A stretch of DNA of 64,000 bases, taken from the IMG/VR virus record IMGVR_UViG_3300037805_000525, positions 45,094-109,093 of that record; one strand, written 5' to 3'. The notes beneath the pieces were generated by a model. The model saw nothing but the letters and a program-made list of their open reading frames with translations. It was not told the origin of the DNA and did not search any database. Shown piece by piece: positions 11,179 through 64,000 of the stretch (positions are counted from its first letter, which is position 1; every line of letters starts with the position of its first letter). A program made the translations under genes and the position numbers. The DNA comes from a virus.

Positions 11179-11496
11179 CTACTCCGACTCGGGGCGGAAG
11201 TTGAGCGTCTTGCCCTTGAGGATCGTGGCCGGCTTCTTGCCGAGATTTGCCTTGGCTGGGCCGGCGACGCTGGTGTTCAGCGCGGGGAGCTTGGCCGAGG
11301 CCGGGACACCGCCGCTCGGGGGCTTAGCACCACCAAGCCCACGAGCAGGCGTGGGTGCGTCGATCCCACCAGGTGATGTGGCGCCCATGACGCCGCTGCC
11401 GCCGCCAGGGATCTTCGCGTCCTTCGCGAACTTGTACATCTGCCGGATGCAGCGTGGGTCGAAGATGTTTACGAGGTTGTCGTCGGGGTGGCTCAT
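11179..11496 (-). CDS. Alternative short product with VFDPR-type leader
   Basis: 105 aa. The ATG at 11496 is preceded by AAGGAG at 5-6 bases, a better site than needed by chance inside a gene. The product starts 'MSHPDDNLVNIFDPR' with a K-F-A at 22-24, close to the layout of the leader family (K-L/V-A at 19-21). It may be the true gene, with the upstream frame fused or overlapping in phase. Confidence 0.5.
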   Translation of the reverse strand: MSHPDDNLVNIFDPRCIRQMYKFAKDAKIPGGGSGVMGATSPGGIDAPTPARGLGGAKPPSGGVPASAKLPALNTSVAGPAKANLGKKPATILKGKTLNFRPESE

Positions 11497-11949
11497 ATGG
11501 GCTCCTTGCGTGCTCGAGTTATCCGAGCTGTTTTTCATCATACCAAGTCCGGCGCCTGCCAAACCTGCATATAGCAGATGTTTCGGTGCGAGCCCTGGGC
11601 GAGTGGCTCCTGCGGCGGCACCATACATGTTTCGCAGGCGGCTGGCGCCCAGGCCAGCTTCAGCAAGCGTGTCGACCACGGCACCGCGCTGCGAGGCCGC
11701 CTGGTTTCTTATCAACGCCTCCATGCTACGCCTGCGGCGATCGAACTGCCACTTGCTAAGCAGTGGAATGTCCCCTTGCCCGCGCGCGAGTGCGGCCTCG
11801 AGACGTTGTGTGGTCACCTTCTTAGGAAGGCCGAAGAAGTGGTCCATCTTCGTCACAGGGCGCCCAAGTCCAGCGAGGCTGGTGGCGTCGTAGGGTAGGC
11901 GCTTTGCGCGGCGCCCCACTGCTTGTAGGAGTAGCTGCTTCAGGGACAT
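11179..11949 (-). CDS. Virion protein with internal capsid-leader-like segment
   Basis: 256 aa. Residues 1-130 are basic and helical and begin 'MSLKQLLLQA'; a hydrophobic 'YAGLAGAGLGMM' segment follows. Residues from about 152 contain 'IFDPRCIRQMYKFAKDA', clearly related to the leader of the proteins at 60630-63845. Directly before that segment is an in-frame ATG with a strong Shine-Dalgarno, so a short product is also likely (separate entry). The Pro/Gly-rich C-terminus looks disordered. Function unknown. Confidence 0.65.
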   Translation of the reverse strand: MSLKQLLLQAVGRRAKRLPYDATSLAGLGRPVTKMDHFFGLPKKVTTQRLEAALARGQGDIPLLSKWQFDRRRRSMEALIRNQAASQRGAVVDTLAEAGLGASRLRNMYGAAAGATRPGLAPKHLLYAGLAGAGLGMMKNSSDNSSTQGAHMSHPDDNLVNIFDPRCIRQMYKFAKDAKIPGGGSGVMGATSPGGIDAPTPARGLGGAKPPSGGVPASAKLPALNTSVAGPAKANLGKKPATILKGKTLNFRPESE

Positions 11950-42578: not shown

Positions 42579-45500
42579 CTAGAACTGCAGCTCGACGTCG
42601 ATGCCGTCCAACGCGTCCCAAGGTGTGACCCGGACGACCACCTCAATGCGGCCGCGCTCGGTAGGCGATGCCTGCAGGCTAATGATCTCGAAGCCCTGCA
42701 CGCGGTTGCCTTCACCACTGTACTTCTGCTGCAAGCTGCCCAACGCCAAGCTGAGCAGGTCCATCGTGTTCCCGGTCAGGTTCTTGCCGACCATGAACCC
42801 AGTGCCGATCCGGTAGATCAGGTTGGACATGAAGTCTACCTGCCGGGTCACGCCGGGCTGCCGGGTATCCGCGTCGGACAGGTCCGTCGTGAGGGCGTGC
42901 CGGATGATCACCGGGCCGTTGGTGCTGTCCTGGATGAGCCAGCAGATGCCGCCCCCCGCCGCGAGGGCCATCTGGCCCCGCTCAACGAAGACGTCACTCG
43001 AGCCGAGCACACGGGAGAACCCCTGAAGGACGTAGCCCGTCAGGTTCTTCTCGGGGTCGGTGGACGCGATGACAGCTGCGAGTGCGGCAGCCGCGTAGAA
43101 GCCAGGAACGATCACATCCTGGCCGGCGTAGCTGGTGACGAGCAACTCTGGCTGGAGCGCCCACATGCGGCGACTGCCGAGACCGGTACCCATGTCGGAG
43201 AGCGCCTGGCAGATGAGCCCGCGCCCCGTCGAGGTGGTCTTGTCCAAAGCACCCTGTCGGATGTTGACCGACGTCGTGTCGCCGTCGGCCGGGAATACCG
43301 CGAGGTACTCCGAACCAAGGTTGTAGAAGGCGTCGTCGTTCCCGTCGCTGCCCGGGCCGCTACCGGGGTTGAACGCGTCGGTCAGGTCGATCTGGATCGT
43401 GCTGGCGCTGACGAGCGCAGACACCCGGTAGCGGTACGCGTCGCCACCAAAGTCCAGGTAGATCCCCTGTGCGGGCGAGTAGACCTCGCCGATGCCACCA
43501 ACGATTGCGACACCATCGGCACCAATCAACCCGTTGAGTGCCAACGCGAGGTTGACCCCCACCTCGGTGAACTCGAGGTTGTACTTCGACCCACCGACCG
43601 ACTCGGCTGTAGCCACGCCGGAGAACGCGAGCAGCGGAGTCTTCTCGGTCGGCATGTCGAAGGTTGCGATTGCCGTGCGCCAGCGGTGCTCCGACGCGGT
43701 GGACATCGCCTCGACGTGCACCTTGTACAGGCCAGCGATCTGCTGGTCCGTGGTCAGTGGCGCGAGGACGTAGGCGTCCTTCGTCTCCAAGAACTCCAGC
43801 GCGCGCTGGTGGGACTCGTAGGTGCCGTAGGGCGCGTCCGCCGTGACCTCGTCGATGCCCAACGCCTGGATGTTGGTCGTGACGTTGTTGGCGAACGCGA
43901 TCGACAGCGCGAACGCGAGGGGGTTCTCGGGGCTGATGGGCCCAAAGAGTGCGTCGACCTCAGCCAGGCTATTGAACGACCACAGGACCGGGTCGGAACC
44001 CGAGGCGCTGGCGTCGAGGCGGAGAGCCTTGTACCCGATGTAGACCGGGTTGAGTGCGCCGAGGATGGCGAACCCTGCGGCGTCTCGAACGGCGCCGGCC
44101 TTGACCACGAACAGCTCCACGGCGTCGTACGGGACGACCTCGGCAGCCATTGGGGGGCTGTCCTCGTCGAGCTTGTACGAGCGGCTGTACCAGCTGGTCA
44201 GCTCGGCGCCGGCCTGGACCGAGTACTCGCTCAGCACGAGGACGGCACCCGAGTAGGTGTTGCCGCCCACCACGTGGTCTTCGATCCCAACAATGCGCCC
44301 GAGCACGCTGCCGTTGTCGTAGAGCATGTCGCCAGCCACGAGTGCCTCGTGGCCACCCGAGAACAGGTAGTTCTCGTAGGTGTGCAACGCGCCGCTGATG
44401 TTTGGTGCGCCCCGGCGGTAGTCCACCCCGAGCGTGGTGGTGCCCGACACTGCGTACAGCGTGGCTGCGAAACCCGCAACCGACCCCTGCAGCGACAGCT
44501 GGATGTCACGCGCCTGGTAGTCGAAGGAGCTCGCCGCGGACAGGCACATGCCCGTCAGGTCGACGTAACTGGTCGGCGAGAGGCCCGCAGGCAGCACGCA
44601 GTTCGAAAGCGAGTTCGAGATACTCTCTACGCGGAGAGCAAAGTTCGTGCCCGCATCGGTGATCACCGCGTCCACGCCGGACACGTTCGTCGCGTACGTA
44701 TCGAACAGCGTGTTGTCGATCGCGAAAATCGACGCAGCGGTCCCGACTTCGGTGAGCTCGAACTGTTGGCCGGCGGTGTCGGTGATGCTGTGCAGCACCA
44801 GGTACGAGACACCGTTGATGGTGGCCTCCGCAAACATCATGTAGCTGTCTAGGATCGCGTTCTTTGCCAGCCCTGCGCCTGCACCGTTCAGCGCCGCAAC
44901 CAGCGCGGTCAGCGTGATGCCCTGCCAGGTGACTGTCAGCGTGTCCGTCAGCAAAGGCGCAGGCATGCTGATCACCAGATCGAGTGCGCCTGCGTCCACC
45001 ATGGACAGGAGCGCCGGGTCTGAGATCGGGATGAAGATGGCGCCGCCAACCTTCGCATTCGTGAGCTGGAACACGGTGGAGCCCTGAACGAGCCCCTGCT
45101 CCATCGGAATGGCGGCCTGCGTGTTGATCTCTGTCGAGGACAGGGTCAGCTCGTGGATGCGTCCGTTGACGTCAAACACGGGTGACAGCGCTGCGACGGC
45201 GTACGACTCGGAGCCCGCGTACGAGCCGCCGAACAGCTTCTCGAACACAATGCTGTTCGAAGCGCGGAGCGCGATCGACGTGTCCCGTGTCGTTCCGCCA
45301 AGGGAGACGATGCGGAGCACATCGACCGACGATGCGCCCGTGTCGCCCGCCGCGACGCTGTGGGACGGGAACACCGCGTCGATCGAAGCGGTTGCGCCGA
45401 CGAGACCCGCGAGGGCCACAGTCGTGATGGCGCCAGACAACACGAAGCGCTGCCACTCGCCGCCGTCGACAGACACCTCGAGCCACTGGCCCTCGACGCC

Positions 45501-46820
45501 GAGCGCAGCCGCTGTGTCCGCAATCCCGACCTTCACGCAGCCGAGCACTCCAGCGCCGACCGTGAGGCCCTGCCCGAAGTTGACTGGGTCGGACCCATTG
45601 TTCAGGTAGAACGAGCGCGCGGGCGCGTCGTCCATGAAGTGCGTGCCCGCCGCGTCAGCGTGGTACGTGACCGAGACGGCCATGTGCAGTGCCTGGTCGA
45701 GCCCAGTCGCCGTAGCGATCGCGGTGGCGAGGTCCTCGAAGTACGGGCCAGAGCCGTTGTTGTCACCCTTGGTGATGGTGAGCGTAGACCCCGCCCACGC
45801 CGCGGACACGGTCCCTGCGAGAGGGGCGCCGCCGTCGACAAACGCGACTTGCAGCGCGTTTCCGTCGTCCCCCACGTAGTTGCCAGCGGTGTTGTCATCC
45901 GCGAGGCGGCCGAGACCCTGTGCGGTGGCCGTGAGGTAGTTGTTCCCGCTGACGTCCGGGTAGACCACGGAGCCTCCGAGAAACGACTCTCCCAGAGGGA
46001 TGATCACACTGGCGTCGTTCCCCAGGTGGAGTACACGGTTCGTGGACGGCCCAAGCTGCTGGAGCCCGTGCAGCGCCGACCGGGCGTTGCCGAGCGCTGG
46101 CGCTTCGCGGCGGTCCGTGGCCACGTTTACAACGTGCGAGGGACCGCCGATGTGCGAGTTCACGTTGATCGCGCTGTCCTTGGACAGCTGCGAGATGACC
46201 CGGTTGGACAGGATGTACATCTCTGCGGCGTCTGCGTCGAAGACGATGTCGTCTCGGTCGGCGAGGGGCGAGGGCACGGAGTTGTACGGGATCTCCAGGT
46301 TGATGCCCTCGTACCCGTCCTTGCCGAACACCGCGTCGTCAACGTCGGCGGTGAGGTTGAGCGCGGCGTACGCGCTCACGGCGGGCGGCGGCACAGTGAT
46401 CAGCTTGATCGACGCGGACGAACCCTTTGACACGGTCTCGAGGACCAGCTTGCCGTCGGAGATCTGGGCGGTCACGCCGGACAGTGCGGCGCGGATGGTG
46501 GACAGCACCAAGTTGTGTGCGAGTCCGACGCCGCCGATGGTGTTGGGGAAGTTCACGGCGACGGCGGGGTTACCGTTCACCGACACCAGGAGCGACGCGC
46601 CCGCGACGAGCACAGGCTCAGCGATCGCGACCGAGGAGATCACGCGGGCTGCGGCGGTGACCAACGCGTCCACGTTCGCGGAGCCGTTGGTGTCGATGGG
46701 GGCTACGATCTGATACAGCGCTCCGACGATGCAGGCTGGCTGCGTGGGGTCCGCGACGGTCACTTCGTCAGGTACGTTGACCTGGGTGACCAGCGTGGAG
46801 GGCCTCTGTAGTTCCGACAT
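42579..46820 (-). CDS. Tail sheath protein, exceptionally large
   Basis: 1413 aa against about 350-700 for most sheaths. The C-terminus ('GRIEVVVRVTPWDALDGIDV') and the region before it ('DPEKNLTGYVLQGFSRVLGS', 'AAGGGICWLIQDSTNGPVII', 'RQVDFMSNLIYRIGTGFMVG') match the conserved sheath core. The N-terminus 'STLVTQVNVPDEVTVADPTQ' also fits. The middle 800 or so residues are beta-rich and probably inserted surface domains. Contracts to drive the tube through the envelope. Strong codon bias indicates high expression. Followed by tube candidates. Confidence 0.85.
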   Translation of the reverse strand: MSELQRPSTLVTQVNVPDEVTVADPTQPACIVGALYQIVAPIDTNGSANVDALVTAAARVISSVAIAEPVLVAGASLLVSVNGNPAVAVNFPNTIGGVGLAHNLVLSTIRAALSGVTAQISDGKLVLETVSKGSSASIKLITVPPPAVSAYAALNLTADVDDAVFGKDGYEGINLEIPYNSVPSPLADRDDIVFDADAAEMYILSNRVISQLSKDSAINVNSHIGGPSHVVNVATDRREAPALGNARSALHGLQQLGPSTNRVLHLGNDASVIIPLGESFLGGSVVYPDVSGNNYLTATAQGLGRLADDNTAGNYVGDDGNALQVAFVDGGAPLAGTVSAAWAGSTLTITKGDNNGSGPYFEDLATAIATATGLDQALHMAVSVTYHADAAGTHFMDDAPARSFYLNNGSDPVNFGQGLTVGAGVLGCVKVGIADTAAALGVEGQWLEVSVDGGEWQRFVLSGAITTVALAGLVGATASIDAVFPSHSVAAGDTGASSVDVLRIVSLGGTTRDTSIALRASNSIVFEKLFGGSYAGSESYAVAALSPVFDVNGRIHELTLSSTEINTQAAIPMEQGLVQGSTVFQLTNAKVGGAIFIPISDPALLSMVDAGALDLVISMPAPLLTDTLTVTWQGITLTALVAALNGAGAGLAKNAILDSYMMFAEATINGVSYLVLHSITDTAGQQFELTEVGTAASIFAIDNTLFDTYATNVSGVDAVITDAGTNFALRVESISNSLSNCVLPAGLSPTSYVDLTGMCLSAASSFDYQARDIQLSLQGSVAGFAATLYAVSGTTTLGVDYRRGAPNISGALHTYENYLFSGGHEALVAGDMLYDNGSVLGRIVGIEDHVVGGNTYSGAVLVLSEYSVQAGAELTSWYSRSYKLDEDSPPMAAEVVPYDAVELFVVKAGAVRDAAGFAILGALNPVYIGYKALRLDASASGSDPVLWSFNSLAEVDALFGPISPENPLAFALSIAFANNVTTNIQALGIDEVTADAPYGTYESHQRALEFLETKDAYVLAPLTTDQQIAGLYKVHVEAMSTASEHRWRTAIATFDMPTEKTPLLAFSGVATAESVGGSKYNLEFTEVGVNLALALNGLIGADGVAIVGGIGEVYSPAQGIYLDFGGDAYRYRVSALVSASTIQIDLTDAFNPGSGPGSDGNDDAFYNLGSEYLAVFPADGDTTSVNIRQGALDKTTSTGRGLICQALSDMGTGLGSRRMWALQPELLVTSYAGQDVIVPGFYAAAALAAVIASTDPEKNLTGYVLQGFSRVLGSSDVFVERGQMALAAGGGICWLIQDSTNGPVIIRHALTTDLSDADTRQPGVTRQVDFMSNLIYRIGTGFMVGKNLTGNTMDLLSLALGSLQQKYSGEGNRVQGFEIISLQASPTERGRIEVVVRVTPWDALDGIDVELQF

Positions 46821-50711: not shown

Positions 50712-51914
50712 TCAGAAGTCGGTCACGGTGCCGACGGTGCCGCCCTTGCTGATCAGGTTGTTGAGCGCGCCGAACTCGCTCTCGGCCAACGGGGCGAACC
50801 GCGCCTGCATGGCGGTGTTCGCGCCGCCGGCGACTGTCTCAGCGCTGCCCGCGTAGAGCTCGAGCTTGCGCACGCCGGCGATGTTGCCGATGTACGTGGC
50901 GATGATCTTGTTGGCCTCGAAGGTGAAGCGGTCCAGCTCCTTGTCCACGTAGGACTTGAGCGGACGCAGCGTGGCGCAGCCACCAACAAACGAGCGATCG
51001 GCGAATGCGAAGATGTTGCCGGGACGAAGCACGCCAGTGTTCGTGGTCGTGGCGTACTTGATGCCTTGCACGGTCGAGTACTTGTACCCCTTGACCGTGG
51101 TCTCCTTGGCGATCTCATCACCGACTTCACTGGTGGACCAGTTGTTCATGTCGAGGATGTCGGTCGCCGAGATGCCGATCACCTTGCACTTGAGGTGGCT
51201 CTTGCGAGGACCGCCGGTGCCCGGGAACAGCTTGAGCAGCTTGGTGATGTCGTCCTTCTGCAGCGGGAAGAGTTGGTCGTCGACCACGCCTGCGGCAGCG
51301 CCCGCGGCGCCCGCGCCAGCTGTCAGCGCGTCAGTGCCCTTGACCTTGCCGATCTCAGGTACGCCGGCGGCCACGTTGAACGCGGTGAACGCGGTGTTCA
51401 CCGTGAGCGCAGTGCTGTACGCAATGCCCTGCTCTTCCTTCTGGTTGATGATGGTCGCGCCTTCGCACAGGACCACCTGGCGGCGGTCGTAGACCTCCAT
51501 CATGGCGTCGAGGGCCCGCTCACGGACCATTTTTTCCATGTCGTAGCGGTACGCCATCATGTCCAGTTCGGACTGCTGCAGGCGCTCGGTCTGCAGCTTG
51601 TAGAACGGGGTGAGGAACCGAGGGCTCGTGTAGTAGCGAACCTGGGGCTCGCCGCGGAACGACGCCGACATCGCGCGGGCCTCAGGACCACTCTCGACCA
51701 TGTAGGCGAGGGTGTCGTGCTCGGTGGAGCGCTGAATCTCGGGGTCCTTCTCACTGACCTTCTGCTCGGGCCAGATCTTCGCGAAGAGGCTGTCGCTCTT
51801 CTCTCGGTCGCGGATGAACGCCGTCATCTTGCTCGCGACCTTGGTCTTGCCGTCGGTCGTGCCGAGGAGATCCAAAAGCTCGTTGAAGTGCGCGGCGGTG
51901 AAGGATGTACTCAT
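50712..51914 (-). CDS. Probable major capsid protein
   Basis: 400 aa, strongly biased codon use, between a set of scaffold-like genes and its own terminator. Residues 1-60 are helical ('[16 protein letters not shown]') and carry 'TKVAS' at 24-28, a candidate maturation site; from about 85 the mixed helix/strand sequence ('[20 protein letters not shown]', later '[15 protein letters not shown]') fits an HK97 fold with an E-loop and A-domain. The capsid shell assignment rests on position, size and codon bias rather than a recognised family signature. Confidence 0.7.
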
Positions 51915-52616: not shown

Positions 52617-52976
52617 TCAGCCGCCGTAGATCGCTTCGTTGAAAGATGCGGGCGTGTACTCCGCGTCGGCCTGCTTGACACTACTGAGTGACATGCCTGA
52701 GCCGTTGGGCTGAATGATCGCGAGCGCGCTCAACTTACCCTCGAGCTCCTCGATGCTGTTGTGCTCGCGCACGACAGAGGCGAGCTTCTCCTGGGCGGTA
52801 CCGTTGCCGCAGTAGCCCTTCTCGTCCATCACGCCGGTGACTTCGATTGCCTTGCGCAAAAACTCGAGCTCGGCAGTCACCTGCGCAGTCTTTGTTGCGT
52901 AGGCATCGCGCTCGGCCACGAGTGCTCGCAGCGTCGCGGGCACTGCTGCCAACACCTTTGTGGCGCGGTCGTCCAT
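52617..52976 (-). CDS. Small coiled-coil head-module protein
   Basis: 119 aa from ATG at 52976 with GAGGAGG 6 bases upstream. Residues 10-55 and 75-95 are coiled-coil-like ('LVAERDAYATKTAQVTAELE'). Contains a 'VKQADAEY' near the end. Could belong to the scaffold. Family unknown. Confidence 0.6.
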   Translation of the reverse strand: MDDRATKVLAAVPATLRALVAERDAYATKTAQVTAELEFLRKAIEVTGVMDEKGYCGNGTAQEKLASVVREHNSIEELEGKLSALAIIQPNGSGMSLSSVKQADAEYTPASFNEAIYGG

Positions 52977-52977
52977 A

Positions 52978-53466
52978 TCAGGCCTCCTCATTGGCAGCGG
53001 CGTTGCGCAGGTCAGCGATCAAGTCATCGCTCGGAGCGCCGAGTGCTGCGTCGACTTCAGAATCCAGGTCGTAGCTGTCGTCGATCTCTGCAGGGGCCGC
53101 CTTGGCGGCGCCCAGCAGCTCAGCGTGCAGCGAGCTGGCGAACTTCTCAGCGGGCGCCGAGTGCGCGACAGCACCGTCCATGATGGCGGAGAGCGCATCT
53201 TCCGGGTCCAGCAGCGCGCCAGAGTCGCGCAACGCACGCTCGGTCAGCTGGTCCAGGGTGTCTGTGTGTGCTGAGGCGACCTTGGTGGGCGCGTACCCTA
53301 GGCCGTCGTCGTTGATCTGCTCTACCGCGTTCGCGAGCTTCTCAACAAACTCCGCGTCAGTGAGTGCGAGCTCAGCGAACTCAGCGAACTCATCCCCCGC
53401 TGACGCGTTCTTCTCCATGAGCTGGAGCAGCTCATCAGCTGGGCTGTTTGTGGGCATATCCGGCAT
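52978..53466 (-). CDS. Acidic head-module protein with K-x-A motifs
   Basis: 162 aa, strongly acidic, helical. Contains K-[x]-A tripeptides in 'MEKNASA', 'VEKLANA', 'TKVASAH' and 'EKFASSL'. Acidic helical proteins digested by the prohead protease are typical scaffolds. A terminator lies upstream, between it and the 231-aa protein. The stop is 2 bp before the next ATG. Confidence 0.6.
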   Translation of the reverse strand: MPDMPTNSPADELLQLMEKNASAGDEFAEFAELALTDAEFVEKLANAVEQINDDGLGYAPTKVASAHTDTLDQLTERALRDSGALLDPEDALSAIMDGAVAHSAPAEKFASSLHAELLGAAKAAPAEIDDSYDLDSEVDAALGAPSDDLIADLRNAAANEEA

Positions 53467-53539
53467 ATCCACCTCGTTGCTTGCCTTCTGTAATCAAGTC
53501 TATGCGTGCGCGCGTACAGAGCAAAGCGAAACCGCGCAT

Positions 53540-53601: not shown

Positions 53602-54297
53602 CTACTGCTGCGCGTGCATGGCCTGTGCTTCGAGCGCGTCGTAGAACTCACCGAGGCCAGCGCCCATCTGATCGATCTGATCCTGCGACCAGCCGGCGCT
53701 TGCGAGCTTCATGGGGACGTAGGCGCCCAGCGCCTCCATGACGTCGTCGCCGAGGTTGAGGTCAATGACCGAGTAGCGGTCTTCGATGCCCGCGATCTTC
53801 TCGGGCTCCACCACGCCAGCGAACACCAGCACGTCGTTGGTGTAGTCCTCTGCGAGCTTGTGGAACTCAGCCTCGGTGATCTCGTTGAGGGCGACGGGCG
53901 CCTCCTCAATCTCCTCAGCGGCGGCCAGCTTCTCGAGCTGGTCGAAGAAGGCGTTGGCCTGGTGCTCGCCGACCAGGCGGCCATACTCGGCGGCCTCTGC
54001 GGCGGCAGTCTTCGTGAGGGTGGACTCGTAGAGTCCGGCGTCGGCGGGCGAAGCAACCTTGCTGGTTGTCTGCATTTCGGCTCCTGGGTCGCCCACCTGC
54101 GTGGACTCGTTGATGATCGAAACGATCGTGGGGACGTCTACGGACTTGTAGAGGTCGATCTGCTTTGCGCTGGCCTGCTTTTCCATGCGCTCCAGCGCCG
54201 GCTCGTGCTCCATGCCGACCTGTGCGAGGACCTCGTCACGTGCGGTGGGCTCGGAACCGAGTTCATTGAGCAGGTCTTGCAGCGAAGATTCGGACAT
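53602..54297 (-). CDS. Acidic scaffold-like protein
   Basis: 231 aa, GAGGAG 7 bases before the ATG. Acidic and helical, Ala/Glu-rich, with six K-[x]-A tripeptides ('EKQASA', 'SKVASP', 'TKTAAA', 'EKLAAA', 'HKLAED', 'MKLASA') spaced along its length. This fits a scaffold cut into pieces by the prohead protease encoded just upstream. No sequence match to a known scaffold is claimed. Confidence 0.6.
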   Translation of the reverse strand: MSESSLQDLLNELGSEPTARDEVLAQVGMEHEPALERMEKQASAKQIDLYKSVDVPTIVSIINESTQVGDPGAEMQTTSKVASPADAGLYESTLTKTAAAEAAEYGRLVGEHQANAFFDQLEKLAAAEEIEEAPVALNEITEAEFHKLAEDYTNDVLVFAGVVEPEKIAGIEDRYSVIDLNLGDDVMEALGAYVPMKLASAGWSQDQIDQMGAGLGEFYDALEAQAMHAQQ

Positions 54298-54380: not shown

Positions 54381-55955
54381 CTATACAAGGTGCGGCAACT
54401 TTTTGTTAATCAGCTTAGCCAACTCGACCATTCCCGTGGCTGCCGTGGCAGCAAGGATTGGGTGAGACTCTACAAGGTTCTCCACCGTACCCTTTTGCTG
54501 CGGGGCCTTGCGGGACGTATACGCCGAGTACAGGTACGCGAGCGGGAGTGCGATCGCGAAGTTCTTACTCGCGGCACCAGCGAGCTTCTCGAGGTCTGCC
54601 GAGCCGTCGTCATCTAGCGCGTCCGCAGGTAAGAAGCACTCACTGTAGTTGAGCAGGTCCTCTCTGTACGCGTCGTACGCGGCACCGATCTTGAGCATGC
54701 GCGGCGACGGGGGGCCCTGCGAGATTGTGATGTGTACGCTAACCGGCGGAGGCCCCGAACGAAGAGACCGGCCGGCAAACATACGAAGCAGCGCCCCCTG
54801 CAGCGACGCACCGCCTATCGCGCTGCCGTGGTCGGCGCGTAGTCCGCGCGTAACGCCTCGGTCCTCGGCGGGCAACCTGAAGCGTACGGCACTAGCAATG
54901 GGGCGTCCGGACGGGACAACCTGATCGCCTCGGAAGATGCCGCGCGCACGTGATGCCTGCCCCAGGGAGTGCATCAGCCCCGCGCCAAACTCTTGTGGGG
55001 ACAGCACGGCGCCCATACCTGTCAGGCTGCGTAGCACGGTGCCGAAGTTCCGACCCCGCGGGAACATCCCACGAAGCGACTCCTCTGGGATGCCTTTACG
55101 GCACGACTCCAGCGCAGGACCCAACTTGGAGGCCATAGCCGGGATACGCTTTACGAGTTCGGCCGTCTTGTCGTCCGCGACCTTCTCAGGTTGTGCATCC
55201 AGGAAGGTCTCTTCGGCGGATAGTGCGGGAAGCTCAGACGCGGCAGATGCAATCTTGAGCATCGTGTACCCAACCGCATCCGCGTTAACAACGACGAAAC
55301 TGATGTCGAAGAACACTGGGCGCGGGTTGTTGACGCACACCTGCTGCCCATCGTCCAGTATGCGATTCCGGCGCTGCTTCATGTGACTGCAGTAGTCGAA
55401 CGCCGTACGTGCTTTGTTCCCACACCCACGAATTCGGCAAACGTCGAACGGCACACGACAGCCCATGCTTACGGGGACCGCGACGCCGCGGTCTAGCCGT
55501 TCGTACAGATCGCCATGGCCGAACTCGATGCAACGCTTCTGGTCGACGCAGAGGATGAGCTCCACGCGGCGCATCAGCTGGTTGTACACCGCGTACACGA
55601 CGGAGCCGAACGACTTGGTGCGGTCCTTATTCCGGTGGTTGCGAAACACCCCCGCGGTGAGGAACGTACGGTGCCCCCAACGCGTAGTGCCGTCCACAGG
55701 ATTCAGCTGACTCTCCTGGAAGAAGTCGGCGTTGACGTTCGGGCCGTAGTAGTCGCCCGCGCCGAGGGCGTTGACCAGGACGTACAGGCAGTTTGGTTTC
55801 GGCGCGAGCGAGTCCACGAACGAACGAACACGCGGATCGTTTGTACTCGCCTTAAACGCCAGTTTTGTTCGGCCCTCGACAGACGAACCCGCCACAACGC
55901 GCATCGTGGCTTCGCCGTGCGGTGTCTCCTCTGGCAGGGCTGTGTACTTGTACAT
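54381..55955 (-). CDS. Prohead (capsid maturation) protease with Cys cluster
   Basis: 524 aa. His107 in 'FRNHRNKDRTKSFGSVV' and Ser163 in 'PVSMGCRVPF' match the His and Ser of the HK97-type prohead protease fold (H-x-x-x-K-P-x-G / S-x-G), with the intervening strand 'RRVELILCVD'. An unusual Cys cluster follows at 173, 178 and 189 ('CRIRGCGNK' and 'YCSH'), probably binding zinc. 'TKLAF' at 30-34 could be a self-processing site. The C-terminal 290 residues are of unknown role and end in K-L-A/K-I-A-containing helices. It would process scaffold and capsid proteins. Confidence 0.75.
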   Translation of the reverse strand: MYKYTALPEETPHGEATMRVVAGSSVEGRTKLAFKASTNDPRVRSFVDSLAPKPNCLYVLVNALGAGDYYGPNVNADFFQESQLNPVDGTTRWGHRTFLTAGVFRNHRNKDRTKSFGSVVYAVYNQLMRRVELILCVDQKRCIEFGHGDLYERLDRGVAVPVSMGCRVPFDVCRIRGCGNKARTAFDYCSHMKQRRNRILDDGQQVCVNNPRPVFFDISFVVVNADAVGYTMLKIASAASELPALSAEETFLDAQPEKVADDKTAELVKRIPAMASKLGPALESCRKGIPEESLRGMFPRGRNFGTVLRSLTGMGAVLSPQEFGAGLMHSLGQASRARGIFRGDQVVPSGRPIASAVRFRLPAEDRGVTRGLRADHGSAIGGASLQGALLRMFAGRSLRSGPPPVSVHITISQGPPSPRMLKIGAAYDAYREDLLNYSECFLPADALDDDGSADLEKLAGAASKNFAIALPLAYLYSAYTSRKAPQQKGTVENLVESHPILAATAATGMVELAKLINKKLPHLV

Positions 55956-57253: not shown

Positions 57254-58645
57254 CTACTGCGCGGTCTGCTGGGGATTTGCCGGTACGGCGTTGTCCGCGG
57301 TCGGCTGCTGGCCCAGGCCTGCCCCGTTCGACGCGGCGGGGCCCTGAGGCGCCCCTTGTGGCGCCATGCCGGGAGGGGCCATGCCGGGCGGAGGCCCCAT
57401 GCCCTGCGGAGGCATACCGGGAGGCACCATGCCGGGCGGTAGTGCGGTAGGCATGTCCAGGCCAGGAGGGGGTGCTGAAAACAGGCCTGCCGCGCCCGTG
57501 AGCTGCTCGTCGCTGCCGGTGAGGTATCCCAGCAGGTTCGAGTTCGTACCGACCGCCTGGTTGATGAGCATCTGCACCTCTGTAAGGCGCCCAACAATCC
57601 CGTTCAGGTCTTGCACGAGTCCTGGGACGGGCATGCCCATACCGGGGGCCATACCGGGAGGGGCCATACCGGGAGGGGCCATGTTCGGATCCATGCCGGG
57701 AGGGGCCATGTTCGGATCCATGCCGGGAGGGGCCATGTTCGGATCCATGCCGGGAGGCGGCATTCCTGCCTGTGGAGGGGGCGGTGCCATCGCGCCAGGC
57801 ATACCCTGTCCGACGTTCGGCGTGGAGGTCATCCCGGGGCCCACGACGACGTTCGGTGCGCGAGGCGGGGACTCGCTGAACATCTCGCTCGGGTCCACGC
57901 CAGCTTGCGCCATCGTGTCGTTAGACCGGCTACCGCGCCGCGCAAGTTTACACACGCCAGACAAGCGCGAGTCGATGAGCGCGCGTAGGCCGTGCGACGG
58001 GTTACCTGCGAGGACGAGATCGCCAACGCTCTCTGGGGGCAACCCCTGATCCTCGTGGAGCTGCTGCGCGGCGTGCTTCAGCATCCCAAACTTGCGGTTG
58101 AAGTCGGAGGTGTACTGCGCACGCAGGACGCGCGCTTCGCTGACACCATGGCTGATCTTTTCGAACAACGCGGACCGCTCGTAATCCGTGAGCGGTTCCG
58201 CCGATGCGGTCTTCTCCACCGCGTCGTCGGACAGCCAGGCGCGCACAGAGTTAACTGCGGCGGACTTCTCGAGGCGCGCTGCCGCGGTCTTGATCGCAGC
58301 TGGGCTCGGCGTCTTTGGTGCAGCCACGGGCACAGCCTTCAATTTCTCAGTGACTGAGGCCACCGCGACCTTTGGGTTAACGACGGGAAACGACACGTTC
58401 CCGGTTGCGTCGGGCATCCGCAGCGCGAGGAAGGTCTGGACGTTTGCGGCCTCCGCCAGCCGGGTTGTTTGGTCCCGGTTGAAGCCCTGATCGCGTGCGA
58501 TCTTGACGACAGACTCGAGCAGCGGGGTCTGGTTTGTCCTGAAGGCGTTTGCGGCCTGCTTGGCGAAGTCAGCGATCTCGCGCTCGGAGAACGCGCGCTG
58601 GCCCGACCCGACAAGGCTACGTAGTGATGTGTTTAGGGACTCCAC
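57254..58645 (-). CDS. Head-module protein with Pro/Gly/Met repeats
   Basis: 463 aa from the GTG at 58645, chosen for AGGAG 7 bases upstream. Residues 1-240 are helical with K-[x]-A tripeptides ('VVKIARD', 'IKTAAAR', 'EKSAAVN', 'VEKTASA', 'CKLARRG'). Residues about 275-350 and 400-445 are low-complexity P-P-G-M repeats, including three exact 9-residue units. A portal protein would be expected next to the terminase, but neither length nor sequence pattern fits. Possibly a scaffold or internal protein. Confidence 0.65.
   Translation of the reverse strand: MESLNTSLRSLVGSGQRAFSEREIADFAKQAANAFRTNQTPLLESVVKIARDQGFNRDQTTRLAEAANVQTFLALRMPDATGNVSFPVVNPKVAVASVTEKLKAVPVAAPKTPSPAAIKTAAARLEKSAAVNSVRAWLSDDAVEKTASAEPLTDYERSALFEKISHGVSEARVLRAQYTSDFNRKFGMLKHAAQQLHEDQGLPPESVGDLVLAGNPSHGLRALIDSRLSGVCKLARRGSRSNDTMAQAGVDPSEMFSESPPRAPNVVVGPGMTSTPNVGQGMPGAMAPPPPQAGMPPPGMDPNMAPPGMDPNMAPPGMDPNMAPPGMAPPGMAPGMGMPVPGLVQDLNGIVGRLTEVQMLINQAVGTNSNLLGYLTGSDEQLTGAAGLFSAPPPGLDMPTALPPGMVPPGMPPQGMGPPPGMAPPGMAPQGAPQGPAASNGAGLGQQPTADNAVPANPQQTAQ
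57677..57757. repeat. Three exact 27-bp tandem repeats
   Basis: Units start at 57677, 57704 and 57731 and encode P-P-G-M-D-P-N-M-A on the minus strand. Exact identity suggests recent expansion. Confidence 0.9.
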
Positions 58646-58742
58646 GAACAAACTCCTGTGCGCAATCTCTATCAGAGAATAGTACCGCAAATGCGTGTGC
58701 TGGGAGAGTGGGTGCTCTCTGTGGGGGCGCCCCTGCCGAAAT

Positions 58743-58774: not shown

Positions 58775-60556
58775 CTAGCGCGGACTATCCGGTACGAGAA
58801 TCTCCGGGTTAGGGAACACAGTGAGTAGCGCGAGCATCGCGTAGATCATGCTGTGCAATGTGTCGTCTGACGTGCCTGGGCGCTTCTGGATGATGGGGCG
58901 GGTGCCCTGGCGGGTCATCTCTGCGAACACCGCGAGCAGGTCGGTCATAAACGGGTCCACAATGGAGTCCCACGACGGTAGGCGTATGTACGTCTTTTTG
59001 TACACGGCGTACACAAAGCGCATGATGATTTCTGTGCGGTTCACCATGAACCTGTTCAACTTGGTGTCGAAGTACAAAAGCGACGCGCCGCAGTACTGAT
59101 ACGTGATGACGCGCTGTGGGCCTAGCAGCTTCACTAGCTCGTAGTTTTTGTCGTAGCCGCCGCCGTAGTCAGAGCCCACTAACTGCACGTTGAACTGCTT
59201 TACGATCTTCATGATCTCAGGGATCAGCTTGTCTATGTGCGACTCGTGCGCCAAGAATCGGCGGAAGTACACGTACTGCATCTTGCCGCCCAGCATCATG
59301 ACCACCGTGACCAGCGTGTACGATGCGGCTTCGCCCGTACCCCAGTCGACCCCCATGAATGCCGGTCCGCGCCCAGCGAACTTGTGACCATCCTTTAGGT
59401 GGAACCCAGACAGGCAGTTTGGGAGGATCTTCTCCTTCGGCAGAAGCTTATCCGAGGAGTCGTGCGCGAGCCCCATGATCTCGTTCATGAACTCCGCGAC
59501 AGGATAGTTCTCCAGCTTGTCCCGTACGTCAGCCCACTCAACGCGCGGCGACACTACCTGCGGGATCCTGTACCCCTCAAAGCGCGTGTTCGGGTCCGTC
59601 TCGTTCAGCCACTTACGGGAACGGGCAGACACCCACTCAGCGTTCTCCGAATCCTGCGGGTGGAGCTGTGCGCTGCACCGCTCGCACACCAGGAAGTTGA
59701 GGCCGATGTTTTTCATCGACGTGATGTTCCAGTGGTTGCAGTGCGTGCAGCGCATTGCCCACTCGTACTTTGTGGACCGCTCCTCCCAGTAGTAGTTGAT
59801 TGGGTTGTCCGTTGACTTGGGCGTGCCTGCGTAGATCTCGTACTTGTACATTGACGTGAACAAGGTCTCGCGGATAACAGGGAGGAGCTCTGCGAGTATG
59901 TCTTGCAGCTCGTCTACCGCAAGAAGGTCTGCGGACAGGCCTCGGACACGGTCCGCGTTATGCCTGGCGTAGCTGAGCGTAAGTACGCTGTCCGACATGA
60001 ACCGCTTAGTGAACATGTTGTCGGTGAGCTTGTTGCCGCGCGCGGACCCCTTGAATACCTGCAGCTCTGGGCTGAATCGGATGGGGTCGGAGACTCTGAA
60101 GGACGAGAACCGCTTCGTCTGCGTCTCGGACGGAGAGATGTACAGCGTCCTGAAGTTGGGGCGCAGACAGCTGTGCGCGATTATCTTGTTCCCGACTGTC
60201 GTCGACTTCGCCACCTGGCGTGCGCACATGTACAGCTGGCGGCGCCCAGACGAGTTATAGGGCTGCACTAGGTACGGTTGGTCGGCGATCGAAAAGGGCA
60301 CAAGGCTGCTATCGGCCAGGTCGTCTCGGTCCTGCTGCGTTAGCTGTACGTCGTCCTCGAACCCAGCGTACTCGGCCGTACCTTCCTCCGCAGCCTTTAT
60401 GAGCGCGGCGTTCGGGATACGAATCGCCTCCTGCACCCAGTCCGCTACCGGCACGCGGATCACCTCCATGTTGGCGATCCGCTCCCTGGCCGAGTTAGTA
60501 GCGTCACCACCCCATCTGCCCAGCGTAGCCGCGTCGTCTGCCTTATAAATCTTCAT
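58775..60556 (-). CDS. terL: Terminase large subunit (DNA packaging ATPase/nuclease)
   Basis: 593 aa from the ATG at 60556. Walker A-like 'CARQVAKSTT' at 111-120, Walker B 'LLAVDELQ' near 227, and a Cys4 zinc ribbon ('CTHCNHWN' and 'CERCSAQL'). The nuclease domain has 'GVDWGTGEAASY', 'VGSDYGGGYD' and the late 'DDTLHSMIYA' acidic set. It cuts concatemers and pumps DNA into the prohead through the portal. The start lacks a Shine-Dalgarno: CCACCTCC lies directly upstream, so another start or coupling to an upstream 10-codon frame is possible. Confidence 0.95.
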   Translation of the reverse strand: MKIYKADDAATLGRWGGDATNSARERIANMEVIRVPVADWVQEAIRIPNAALIKAAEEGTAEYAGFEDDVQLTQQDRDDLADSSLVPFSIADQPYLVQPYNSSGRRQLYMCARQVAKSTTVGNKIIAHSCLRPNFRTLYISPSETQTKRFSSFRVSDPIRFSPELQVFKGSARGNKLTDNMFTKRFMSDSVLTLSYARHNADRVRGLSADLLAVDELQDILAELLPVIRETLFTSMYKYEIYAGTPKSTDNPINYYWEERSTKYEWAMRCTHCNHWNITSMKNIGLNFLVCERCSAQLHPQDSENAEWVSARSRKWLNETDPNTRFEGYRIPQVVSPRVEWADVRDKLENYPVAEFMNEIMGLAHDSSDKLLPKEKILPNCLSGFHLKDGHKFAGRGPAFMGVDWGTGEAASYTLVTVVMMLGGKMQYVYFRRFLAHESHIDKLIPEIMKIVKQFNVQLVGSDYGGGYDKNYELVKLLGPQRVITYQYCGASLLYFDTKLNRFMVNRTEIIMRFVYAVYKKTYIRLPSWDSIVDPFMTDLLAVFAEMTRQGTRPIIQKRPGTSDDTLHSMIYAMLALLTVFPNPEILVPDSPR

Positions 60557-60629
60557 CGGAGGTGGTGCGCGTGGAAGGTGTACATGGCGGGGAGCATAGC
60601 GTACCCGCACAGTGTGTTGGGCGGGTTTT

Positions 60630-61256
60630 CTACGCGCCTGCTGCGGCACGCGCTCGGATGAGGCGGTCATTGATCTCGCTGGTCCGGCGCTGGGCTGCGC
60701 GCTCGGCAGCGGTTGTCCCGTCGTGCCCCGGGCGCATGTCGCGCCCGGTAACACGGCCAGCCAGCCCCACTGCCGCATCGACAGGCGAGGGGATATTCCA
60801 GCGCTTGACCTCGTCAACAAGCGAGTTTCCGTAGTCCAGCGCCTTCTCTCCGTAGCCTCTGCGAGAGAGGCGCCGCGCCTCGGCCACCTCAGCTTGATCG
60901 CGGAGAGCGCGCTTTTGTGCGGCCATGGCCTTACGGACCTTCGCGGCCCGGTGCTGCGCGATCATGATGTTGCGGCCTTCGCGCATGAGGCGATCTCCGT
61001 CCGCGGTGTTGCGCTCATGCTGTGTTGCGTTGTCACCGCGAGGGCCAATGTCGCGCCCCATCGCCTTGGAGATCCCGCGCTCCAGAAGGTCCACCGCGCC
61101 CGTACGTGCGTTCTCGACGTGGCGCCCGATCGTCTTCCCAGACTCGGACAGGAAGCCGCCCACGTTGTCGAGCGTTACGTCGTCCATCGAGAACGCGAGT
61201 TTGGTGGCGTGGCGCAAGAAGCGCGGATCGAAAACGCTGGCTCGTTGGTCTGGCAT
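60630..61256 (-). CDS. Leader-family protein A, predicted internal head protein
   Basis: 208 aa from the ATG at 61256 (GGAGG 7-8 bases upstream). The leader has S-V-F-D-P-R at 7-12 and T-K-L-A at 18-21, then 'FSMDDVTLDN', shared with the protein at 63390. The remainder is basic, Arg/Ala-rich and helical, as in DNA-associated internal proteins. The gene lies between two leader-family genes and the terminase. A capsid-targeting role for the leader is inferred. Confidence 0.7.
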   Translation of the reverse strand: MPDQRASVFDPRFLRHATKLAFSMDDVTLDNVGGFLSESGKTIGRHVENARTGAVDLLERGISKAMGRDIGPRGDNATQHERNTADGDRLMREGRNIMIAQHRAAKVRKAMAAQKRALRDQAEVAEARRLSRRGYGEKALDYGNSLVDEVKRWNIPSPVDAAVGLAGRVTGRDMRPGHDGTTAAERAAQRRTSEINDRLIRARAAAGA

Positions 61257-61319
61257 TAGAGGCACCTCCGGTATTGGTGTGCCTAGGATAGCATGTGGCG
61301 GGTGCTTCGGCTGGCGGGG

Positions 61320-62096
61320 CTACCGACGGGCCTTGCTCTTCGCATACGCTGCGCGTGCCGCGCGTGTACGTGGGCCTACGATCCCGTCGATACCGCCGAC
61401 GTCGAACCCTGCGTCCTTGAGGCGCTTCTGCTCCGCCTTGATTGCGCTAATCCGGCTTTTGCTTGGGCGTCGGTGACGGGGCTTCGTACCACCCGCGCCG
61501 GAGTACGGCGGTGTCTTCGCGGGAGCCTTCTTTGGCGCCTGCGAGTATCCGCCGCGGTTGGTGGGCTGTACGCTCTGGATCTCCTCCGAGTAGTTCTTCT
61601 CCGGAGCGTCCTTTGGCATGGACATGTTCGGCATGCTGCGGTTGGGTGCGTCCTTGTCCCGCGGCATGGACATGTTCGGGCCCTCGGCGGGAGTTCCGAT
61701 GCTCATGGGCGGGTTCCTACGCTTCGGTGCCGGCTTACGCTTCGGTGCCGGCTTGGGGAGTCGGCGGTTCGTCCCACGCATGGTGGCGGTTGTGCCTTGG
61801 CGCTTTGGCTTGCCCGGCTCGAGGTTCGCGCGTAGACGTGCCTTGGCGCTCTCCCAGGACGTAGGGTTCGCACTCCCAGCGGGGAGGGGCGCTTTCGGCT
61901 TCTTAGGGAACCCGCGAACACTGGTCGACGCGGGGTTCCTGCGCCCAAGGTCCGTACGTGCAGCGGGCGTGTCCGGCCTAGCTTGCGCCTTGAGCGCGCG
62001 CCGGGCTGCGTACACGGAGTCCTCGGACTCCGCGGCAAGCTTGGTTACCTGGCGCAAGAAGCGTGGATCGAAAACGCTGATCATTTGGTCGGACAT
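61320..62096 (-). CDS. Leader-family protein B with peptidoglycan-binding-like C-terminus
   Basis: 258 aa from the ATG at 62096, with CGGAG 9 bases upstream, which places S-V-F-D-P-R at 7-12 and K-L-A at 19-21 exactly as in its relatives. A Pro/Lys/Arg-rich disordered linker with repeated 'NMSMP' follows. The last 45 residues ('SRISAIKAEQKRLKDAGFDV', 'GGIDGIVGPRTRAARAAYA') match the peptidoglycan-binding-like fold (Q-x-x-L, D-G-I-x-G-x-x-T). It may reach the cell wall after ejection. Confidence 0.75.
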   Translation of the reverse strand: MSDQMISVFDPRFLRQVTKLAAESEDSVYAARRALKAQARPDTPAARTDLGRRNPASTSVRGFPKKPKAPLPAGSANPTSWESAKARLRANLEPGKPKRQGTTATMRGTNRRLPKPAPKRKPAPKRRNPPMSIGTPAEGPNMSMPRDKDAPNRSMPNMSMPKDAPEKNYSEEIQSVQPTNRGGYSQAPKKAPAKTPPYSGAGGTKPRHRRPSKSRISAIKAEQKRLKDAGFDVGGIDGIVGPRTRAARAAYAKSKARR

Positions 62097-62245
62097 CGGT
62101 GGTGTCTCCGCGGTTGGTGCCACTAGGGTAGCACGCGGAAAGACGGGTACGGTGGGGTGCCGTCTAGTTGCCTGCCATGAGGGGCATGGTGCGCGCGCTG
62201 CTCACGTACGGGCGCGGTGCGCTATTCTGTTGCGCCGATGGCTTC

Positions 62246-62352
62246 TAGGCAGGATTGGGCCGCGTTCGGGCTACCGGCGCTGGGCTGCGAGCGCTCGGCG
62301 AGAGACGCCTGCTTCCTCGCCGCCGTCGCTCGAGCTGCCGTAGGGGTTGCGC
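62246..62352. repeat. 107-bp direct repeat, copy 1
   Basis: Identical by eye to 63894-64000. It covers the last 82 bp of the 362-aa leader-family gene plus 25 bp after its stop. The second copy is cut by the window edge, so the repeat may be longer. Confidence 0.9.
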
Positions 62353-63359
62353 AGCTTGCGCGGATCAAACTTCGTAGCCACCGGCGCAGCTGGGTTATGC
62401 CCATACGCCATACGATCCATGCGCGACTTGAGTGCGCTGTTGCGTGCGAATGCCGCCCGCGCGGCGCGCGTCTTCGGGCCAACGATCCCATCAGCCGCGA
62501 CGCCGAGACGCCTCTGCTCGGCCTTAATCGCGTTGATCTTGGCGCGGCTCAGGCGGCTGCGGCGCCTGGGCGCTTTCTTGGGCGTTGCAGCCGCAGGTGC
62601 GGCTGCCGGGCTGGCCGGCGTTGCACCAGACCCGGGCGGTACGTGCACAGGCCCCGCGTTCGTACTCATGTTCGCGTTGGCAGGAGATGAGCTCTGCGCG
62701 GGAGTGGATGGCTTGAATGCGGGCTTGGGCGCTGACGACATGTTCGGCGCGGACTGCGGACTACTTCCTGAGGAGGCCGGTGGCGCGAACACAGGCCCCG
62801 CGTTCGTACTCATGTTCGCATTGGCAGGTGACATGCCTCCCCTGCTGGGCGCAGGTTTACTGCTCGTGGCGGGCGTAGGAGTGGCGGGCGTAGGCTTGCC
62901 GAGCGGGGCGCCGGGCGTAGGCTTGTCCGTCCACCTGTTAGGGACGCTCCCGGACGTTTGGGGGCGGGGCTGGCCCCACCTGTTAGGGACGGCGCGCGGC
63001 TTGGGCGGCGTCGCCGAGCTGATGCCGCGTCGGCGCGTTGTGGGTGGGTTGACGTTCCCGCTGGCCGCGGAGGATGCCGCACCGGAGATTGGCGCGGCAG
63101 CGGACTGCATCATATTGCTGAGCCAGCCGCCCTTGGTAGGTCCGGCCCCGCTAACGTTCGAGGCTGCACCGGACTGGGCACGGTTTGCCTGCGTCTTCTG
63201 GTACGGCGTTAGCGGTGCAGCAGGCACGGCGGGCGGTATGCGCCTGGGGGTAACCCCACGATTGGCCTGTGTCTGCTGGTACGGTGTTAGCGGCGCGGCC
63301 ACCTTCACGAGGTGCCGCATGAAGCGCGGGTCAAAAACGCTGACGTCTTGGTCTTCCAT
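62271..63359 (-). CDS. Leader-family protein C with peptidoglycan-binding-like domain
   Basis: 362 aa, CGGAG 8 bases before the ATG. S-V-F-D-P-R at 7-12 and K-V-A at 19-21. A long Pro/Ala/Ser linker holds repeats 'APLTPYQ.TQANR' (twice near 21-60) and 'SPANANMSTNAGPV' (two copies plus a related one). The domain near 275-310 ('AKINAIKAEQRRLGVAADGI', 'VGPKTRAARAAFARN') is peptidoglycan-binding-like. The 3' end is duplicated at the window edge. Likely carried in the head or tail and active at the cell wall. Confidence 0.75.
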   Translation of the reverse strand: MEDQDVSVFDPRFMRHLVKVAAPLTPYQQTQANRGVTPRRIPPAVPAAPLTPYQKTQANRAQSGAASNVSGAGPTKGGWLSNMMQSAAAPISGAASSAASGNVNPPTTRRRGISSATPPKPRAVPNRWGQPRPQTSGSVPNRWTDKPTPGAPLGKPTPATPTPATSSKPAPSRGGMSPANANMSTNAGPVFAPPASSGSSPQSAPNMSSAPKPAFKPSTPAQSSSPANANMSTNAGPVHVPPGSGATPASPAAAPAAATPKKAPRRRSRLSRAKINAIKAEQRRLGVAADGIVGPKTRAARAAFARNSALKSRMDRMAYGHNPAAPVATKFDPRKLRNPYGSSSDGGEEAGVSRRALAAQRR

Positions 63360-63389
63360 CTAAGTACTCCGGTGAAGGCGGTTAGCGAA

Positions 63390-63845
63390 TTACAGCTGCT
63401 GCCCGAGCAGCCGCTGGATGTCGATCTTCGACGGACCGTAGCCGCCCAGGACGCCGGGTCCCGCGGGGCGCGGACGGAACGTGTCGGCTTTTCGCGGCAC
63501 GTACCCCTCGGACATTTGGCGCAGTGCGCCTCGCGCACCACGGTGCCGTGCGTAGCGCTGCTTGTCACGGTTAGCCACGAACGCTGCGCCTCGGCGTGAG
63601 GCGGCGCGTGCGAGTCCCCGCTGCACGTTTGTCATGTTGTCGCCGTCGACGTCCCGCCCCGCGAAGCTGGACAGCGCGCGCTCTAGCTTCGTGGAGGCGT
63701 TGTCGGCCCACCGCCTAGCGCCAGTACCCACCTCGCTGGCGAACCCCTTGAGGTTGTCGAGCGTGAGATCTTCCATAGAGAAGGCGAGTTTCGTGGCGTG
63801 CCGCAGGTGGCGCGGGTCAAATACGCTGACATTCTGCTCAGGCAT
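63390..63845 (-). CDS. Leader-family protein D, paralogue of A
   Basis: 151 aa, GGAG 6 bases before the ATG. The leader S-V-F-D-P-R at 7-12, T-K-L-A at 18-21 and the following 'FSMEDLTLDNLKGF' are nearly the same as in the protein at 60630, so the two are paralogues. The rest is Arg-rich. No enzyme motif. Confidence 0.7.
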   Translation of the reverse strand: MPEQNVSVFDPRHLRHATKLAFSMEDLTLDNLKGFASEVGTGARRWADNASTKLERALSSFAGRDVDGDNMTNVQRGLARAASRRGAAFVANRDKQRYARHRGARGALRQMSEGYVPRKADTFRPRPAGPGVLGGYGPSKIDIQRLLGQQL

Positions 63846-63893
63846 GTTGGGCTCCAGTACTGGTGCCCAAAGAATAGCATGTAGGCGGGTGGG

Positions 63894-64000
63894 TAGGCAG
63901 GATTGGGCCGCGTTCGGGCTACCGGCGCTGGGCTGCGAGCGCTCGGCGAGAGACGCCTGCTTCCTCGCCGCCGTCGCTCGAGCTGCCGTAGGGGTTGCGC
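63894..64000. repeat. 107-bp direct repeat, copy 2 (cut by window edge)
   Basis: Same sequence as 62246-62352, found after the gene at 63390-63845. Confidence 0.9.
63919..64000 (-). CDS. 3' end of a further leader-family-type gene (partial)
   Basis: Within the second repeat copy the frame and stop (TAG at 63919-63921) match the end of protein C, giving the same C-terminal residues ending 'SRRALAAQRR'. The gene continues beyond the window. It is probably another duplicated peptidoglycan-binding-like member. Confidence 0.6.
   Translation of the reverse strand, partial: RNPYGSSSDGGEEAGVSRRALAAQRR

Follow-up and report, generated by a model that had tools for sequence, protein, structure and literature searches.

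A shared N-terminal leader ending in Lys-x-Ala as a probable capsid-targeting propeptide in an uncultured large phage

Sequence comparisons across 64 kb at the right-hand end of a virus record of 109,093 bases (IMG/VR record IMGVR_UViG_3300037805_000525, positions 45,094–109,093; this whole stretch of 64,000 nt is the window below) revealed a 21-residue leader that opens four adjacent genes, A to D, and recurs in gene E and in gene F, at the end of another contig. We consider it likely that residues 1–21 of proteins A to F are a capsid-targeting propeptide carried by basic, head-packed proteins and cut by the head protease at a Lys-x-Ala (K-x-A) motif. We read the leader as a propeptide with a cut site because K-x-A also brackets the protease core, marks the N-terminus of the capsid protein and fills scaffold-like proteins.

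In the proposed mechanism, while the prohead assembles, the amphipathic stretch around S-V-F-D-P-R-[FH]-[LM]-R would engage the acidic core of the scaffold, or else the protease or portal, and the basic proteins would thereby be co-assembled inside the head. The activated head protease (54381–55955) would cut scaffold, capsid protein, itself and its passengers at K-x-A, most likely directly after Ala, and the mature cargo, from about residue 22, would remain with the DNA, probably sharing its ejection. Cleavage at K-x-A, the exact bond, the scaffold as docking partner, packaging and ejection are all steps that we infer from sequence patterns.

Leader genes in the window

The translations of four adjacent minus-strand genes open with M-x-x-Q-x-x-S-V-F-D-P-R-x-x-R-x-x-x-K-[LV]-A. 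An original prediction, made by reading the window, had described this common layout, and all the positions that it named hold: Q4, S7 to R12, R15, K19, [LV]20 and A21 are constant across A to D. These are protein A (63390–63845; 151 aa, basic, leader 1–21, predicted mature start at F22; MPEQNVSVFDPRHLRHATKLAFS), protein B (62271–63359; 362 aa, pI 12, with a weak peptidoglycan (PG)-binding-like domain around residues 276–314; MEDQDVSVFDPRFMRHLVKVAAP), protein C (61320–62096; 258 aa, pI 11.4, a paralog of B; MSDQMISVFDPRFLRQVTKLAAE) and protein D (60630–61256; 208 aa, pI 10.6, a paralog of A; MPDQRASVFDPRFLRHATKLAFS). The start of C was corrected to the ATG at 62096, not the GTG at 62123, and that of D to the later in-frame ATG at 61256, since the leader is in register only from there; each of these ATGs has a GGAG-type ribosome site. 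The predicted fifth, shifted copy is also present, in protein E (11179–11496, minus strand; 105 aa, leader IFDPRCIRQMYKFA, translation MSHPDDNLVNIFDPRCIRQMYKFA), whose start at 11496 has AAGGAG directly upstream and lies in frame within a longer open frame (11179–11949, minus strand). Ribosome-site-like sequences occur at both starts of this frame, so this gene may have a dual start. With pI values of 9.9–12, the cargos are strongly basic.

The back-translated pattern F-D-P-R-x-x-R has six matches in the window against 0.16 expected, a count reached by none of 100 shuffles, and none in the remaining 45 kb of the record. The sixth match comes from protein B, in which the pattern recurs as FDPRKLR close to the C-terminus (62369, minus strand); the C-tail of F is identical and has the same element (L091:10739, plus strand), in both cases without K-x-A, and this element may provide a further docking contact.

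The leader cluster is followed immediately downstream by the gene for the terminase large subunit (58775–60586, minus strand). A sigma-factor-like protein (10231–11130, minus strand) opens with MTTSSEDHIGEFLKLAEKK, with K-L-A at residue 14, and may also be a packaged protein.

K-x-A in the head module

The protein encoded at 54381–55955 (minus strand, 524 aa), to which the original prediction had assigned removal of the leader, is identified as a head maturation protease by its profile match, with modest support from its predicted fold. Its core, at about residues 41–222, is predicted with high confidence in the structure model; 19 of 23 family members match PHROG 18299 (head maturation proteases; best E 1.5e-12, window protein E 0.001), and among predicted viral structures the model retrieves named prohead proteases at E 1e-4 to 1e-3. 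Without exception, 23 protease sequences keep H107 and S163, the presumed catalytic residues. K-x-A sites at residues 31 and 234 flank the core, and further sites occur at 258, 263 and 457.

K-[LVTIM]-A occurs 39 times in the late proteins of the window, against a shuffled expectation of 20 (mirror motif, 22 vs. 22), and four times in the early arm, against 6.7 expected; the sites in the window crowd in the head module. For a wider comparison, the protease was aligned with those of Vibrio phage D69 and Salmonella phage Arash and 80 related loci were fetched; IMG/VR holds more than 200 related protease loci. Relatives share descent and their counts are not independent, although the sequences had been dereplicated and the comparison includes controls with the mirror motif, with tail proteins and with unrelated phages. 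In the gene that follows the protease immediately downstream, K-x-A ranked first among all two-residue gapped patterns in 51 dereplicated relatives, with 389 occurrences against 156 expected (z 22), in the context hydrophobic-E/T-K-[TVLI]-A-[AS]-A. When followed by A, S, G, N, T or E, it is mostly 2.3–3.8 times enriched in genes −4 to +4 around the protease, with only 1.4 times at offset −1; the mirror motif stays near 1 in these genes, and the excess of K-x-A declines beyond them.

The position of the motif within proteins is equally regular. In the major capsid protein (50712–51914, minus strand), of HK97 fold and with structural matches to the capsids of HK97, T5 and D3 in the PDB (best E 1e-8), K25-V-A27 aligns with a K-x-A in all relatives, and only 15 columns are invariant in 17 aligned sequences, K25 and A27 among them; across 23 capsid proteins K-x-A lies at the N-terminus, whereas the body has fewer K-x-A than mirror motifs. 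Protease residues K31 and A33 are invariant in 23 sequences, while the residues around them vary. K-x-A is found 3–14 residues before the protease core in 43 of 44 sequences and after it in all 44, mostly at 4 or 11 residues, and is near mirror level inside the core. Head proteins gp220, gp223, gp225 and gp242 of Arash contain 2.8–3.5 K-x-A sites per 100 residues, its tail proteins 0–0.7. Phages with only very distant terminases have 163 K-x-A against 165 mirror motifs (12 vs. 15 at residues 11–40), whereas the kin of the window phage have 409 against 203 (74 vs. 15). The protease neighborhood of Gordonia phage Stormageddon has two K-x-A in the capsid N-terminus and none in the gene between.

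Several minus-strand genes of the window head module also carry the motif. An acidic scaffold-like protein adjoining the protease (53602–54297; pI 4.1) has seven K-x-A sites and corresponds in position to the K-x-A-rich gene of the relatives; a second acidic protein (52978–53472; pI 4.1), a probable core or scaffold component, has five, a small head-module protein (52617–52991) three, and another head-module protein (57254–58690; 478 aa) eight. The distribution of K-x-A is thus the signature expected of a maturation-protease site, at which we predict cleavage. The putative protease site of the original prediction thereby gains substance, as K-x-A recurs family-wide at the capsid N-terminus, at the borders of the protease core and in scaffold-like proteins. 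A further minus-strand gene of the window (42579–46820) has a tail-sheath match confined to the last 180 of its 1413 residues, that is, it encodes a sheath protein with a very long N-terminal extension.

The leader and K-x-A might instead be uncut docking motifs for a common partner, be it protease, portal or capsid. Short repeated motifs in disordered acidic proteins are typical of binding sites too, and the additional FDPRKLR that ends up in the C-tail of both B and F, which has no K-x-A, fits this explanation. However, a pure docking motif is not expected to flank the protease core on both sides and yet be scarce in the folded cores of protease and capsid protein, and the pattern of K-x-A is that of propeptide borders. 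We regard docking without cutting as unlikely.

Conservation of the leader and its analogs in relatives

The original prediction had stated that the remaining sequences of the leader proteins differ. This is correct between the A/D and B/C families, in which likeness is limited to residues 1–21 plus about 30 nt of upstream DNA, but not within them: A and D are paralogs over their full length (45% identical), and B and C have a C-terminal PG-binding-like domain in common. Between A and D the leader codons have 10 synonymous and four non-synonymous changes, whereas the next 36 codons have six and 21, respectively (Fisher p 0.006). Because synonymous changes prevail in the leader and not beyond it, these counts indicate that the leader is kept by selection at the protein level and not by recent copying alone.

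This bears on another explanation, that the shared N-termini are a functionless trace of a recent duplication of gene starts comprising promoter, ribosome site and first codons. The leader region and some 30 nt upstream are recognizably repeated DNA (families D1, D2, D4 and D6), A/D and B/C are paralogs, and B and F have an identical 3′ end. Nevertheless, codon differences are mainly synonymous in the leader and mainly non-synonymous after it, the distant gene E encodes the leader with quite different codons, and an analogous leader is kept on many cargos in relatives; mere duplication is therefore improbable, even more so than uncut docking. The upstream repeats of D, C and A (61266–61296, 62106–62136 and 63852–63882) include a TGCTAYNCT box 30–40 nt before the start. 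As a promoter box, GTGCTAYNCT before A, C and D was rejected, since it is not enriched in the window (18 found vs. 22.6 expected).

The original prediction had called for a search for the leader in the genome and in related phages. A leader-alignment scan located the sixth gene, F, at the end of contig IMGVR_UViG_3300037805_000715 (50,656 bases), and no F-D-P-R leaders were found in Arash, in D69 or in the terminase (TerL) kin. The 3′ end of F is at 63894–64000 (minus strand), where it is cut by the contig end, and the rest is at L091:10001–10837. These last 107 bases of the window repeat exactly the stretch at which gene B ends (3′ end; 62246–62352), and the last 127 bases of the other contig (L091:10745–10871) are identical to window positions 62237–62363. 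An exact 127-base overlap is what an assembly with k = 127 leaves at a repeat. This overlap suggests that the contigs are adjacent in one phage, broken at the 3′ end shared by B and F, and IMGVR_UViG_3300037805_000715 is very probably the neighboring contig of the same phage. The gene order would then be SNF2 helicase (L091:7221–9764; Pfam E 1.6e-19), a small gene, F, A, B, C, D and terminase. The sister contig also holds further replication-type genes, as well as a gene (L262:6509–8509, minus strand) for a 667-residue protein with 14 K-x-A against three mirror motifs, probably another processed head protein. Across all viral contigs, the strict leader pattern was found only in the sister contig, besides chance matches in other frames or genes; two matches in bacterial genomes were discarded as chance, as neither site shows a gene start with the leader. 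Single-protein scans for close relatives retrieved four loci with TerL and none with protein D, and protein A had zero matches in phage records.

Relatives possess leaders of their own. In their genes near the protease, K[LVTI]A peaks at residues 21–30, with 14.2 per 1000 positions against about 5 elsewhere and 0.7–1.9 for the mirror motif. Many of these genes share an opening leader of their own, F-x-[DE]-E-[LMI]-x-K-I-A; a profile of this leader found copies in 16 of 18 large relatives, with up to 12 in one record, and of 44 extracted leader genes 20 have Phe precisely at residue 9. The literature returned nothing for the string D-E-L-E-K-I-A and nothing on phage Arash. The tagged cargos are diverse. 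Two genomes have SNF2 helicases among them (E 8.5e-16 and 1.6e-14); others are a protein with a weak MazG match and many small proteins without assigned function. In record G002, a leader-tagged 258-residue protein (L247:78–851, plus strand) weakly matches ADP-ribosyltransferase-type domains (E 0.03), a match that is no more than suggestive and recalls the packaged Alt of T4. The window leader fits the general layout F-x-x-x-[LVMA]-x-K-[LIVT]-A (FMRHLVKVA in B, FQDELVKIA in relatives), with His in A and Cys in E at the place of Phe, but differs in its own F-D-P-R extension and in a middle that is basic, not acidic. We infer a common function for both leader types, with lineage-specific sequence.

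The least credible explanation would make the leader a signal for export or for the host surface and assign the PG-binding-like proteins to lysis or to the tail. In its favor, B and C weakly match endolysin and PG-binding profiles, but the leader has no hydrophobic segment, its genes adjoin the head module and terminase, the family's tail proteins have no excess of K-x-A, and no catalytic lysis domain was found.

Strength of the proposal and comparison with known systems

The propeptide proposal is favored by the opposite charge of cargos and scaffold-like proteins, basic and acidic, respectively. Several points weigh against it. The case for packaging and cleavage is built from sequence; the protease model had no solved-structure match in a PDB search, and it matched the folds of named prohead proteases modestly at best; the exact S-V-F-D-P-R leader was seen in a single phage population; and recent duplication, upstream DNA included, adds to the likeness of the leaders. 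Additionally, the head proteases of T4, phiKZ, SPN3US and 201phi2-1 cut after Glu (PMC9026906), and since these are the well-studied ones of large phages, Lys-x-Ala would be a new specificity.

A broader proposal, which we favor only slightly, is that a family of large contractile-tailed phages uses an undescribed Lys-x-Ala protease code and a modular N-terminal tag to load a dozen or more effectors, SNF2 helicases included, per head. The tag, F-x-D-E-L-x-K-I-A in many members and S-V-F-D-P-R-[FH]-[LM]-R...K-[LVT]-A in the window phage, would be replaced between lineages, as if it had co-evolved with its docking partner. Packed or injected phage proteins are usually identified only by proteomics of isolates; if the proposal is true, tag and protease site would predict those of a large family of uncultured phages from their genomes, and T4-style loading of the head would have a second, independent instance that uses another protease code. 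Deposited genomes exist for two relatives, Salmonella phage Arash and Vibrio phage D69, and the K-x-A part would be directly testable if isolates can be obtained.

The phage resembles the large myoviruses phiKZ, SPN3US and 201phi2-1, in which many head proteins are processed, propeptides contain several copies of the motif and the protease cleaves itself (PMC10052503, PMC9026906). It differs from them in that they cut after Glu, most of their propeptides have 111–254 residues, although some in SPN3US are short (20 and 24 residues; PMC10052503), and a common leader on many cargos is not described there. As to membership in the phiKZ/SPN3US group, the window phage has K-x-A instead of a cleavage motif ending in Glu. 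The helicase-type protein adjoining the tagged cluster is reminiscent of packaged anti-restriction proteins such as DarA/DarB/DdrB of phage P1 (PMC5512222), and both it and the tagged SNF2 helicases of two relatives recall packaged DarB. By Pfam, however, these tagged helicases have no methyltransferase domain. P1 packaging is not known to use a common leader.

The closest parallel is T4, in which a capsid-targeting sequence of ten residues on internal proteins IPI–IPIII (with Alt) is cut after Glu by gp21 (PMC9026906). As in T4, a short N-terminal leader is found on several basic, otherwise dissimilar proteins, the motif at its end also fits sites in the capsid protein, scaffold and protease (here by motif only), and the cargo varies between relatives. 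Conversely, the window leader has about 21 residues against about ten in T4, as many as about 12 genes are tagged in the genome of a relative, K-x-A is the conserved site and the leader end lacks a conserved Glu, A and D have no Pfam or PHROGs match to internal proteins, and no sequence likeness of the leader to that of T4 was seen. The T4 logic of the original prediction thus stands for a leader shared by basic proteins and for a motif common with processing sites, but not for the cleavage residue or sequence homology. Together, these comparisons indicate that the window system would operate as the T4 capsid-targeting sequence does, whereas its sequence and predicted cleavage residue place it outside that family.

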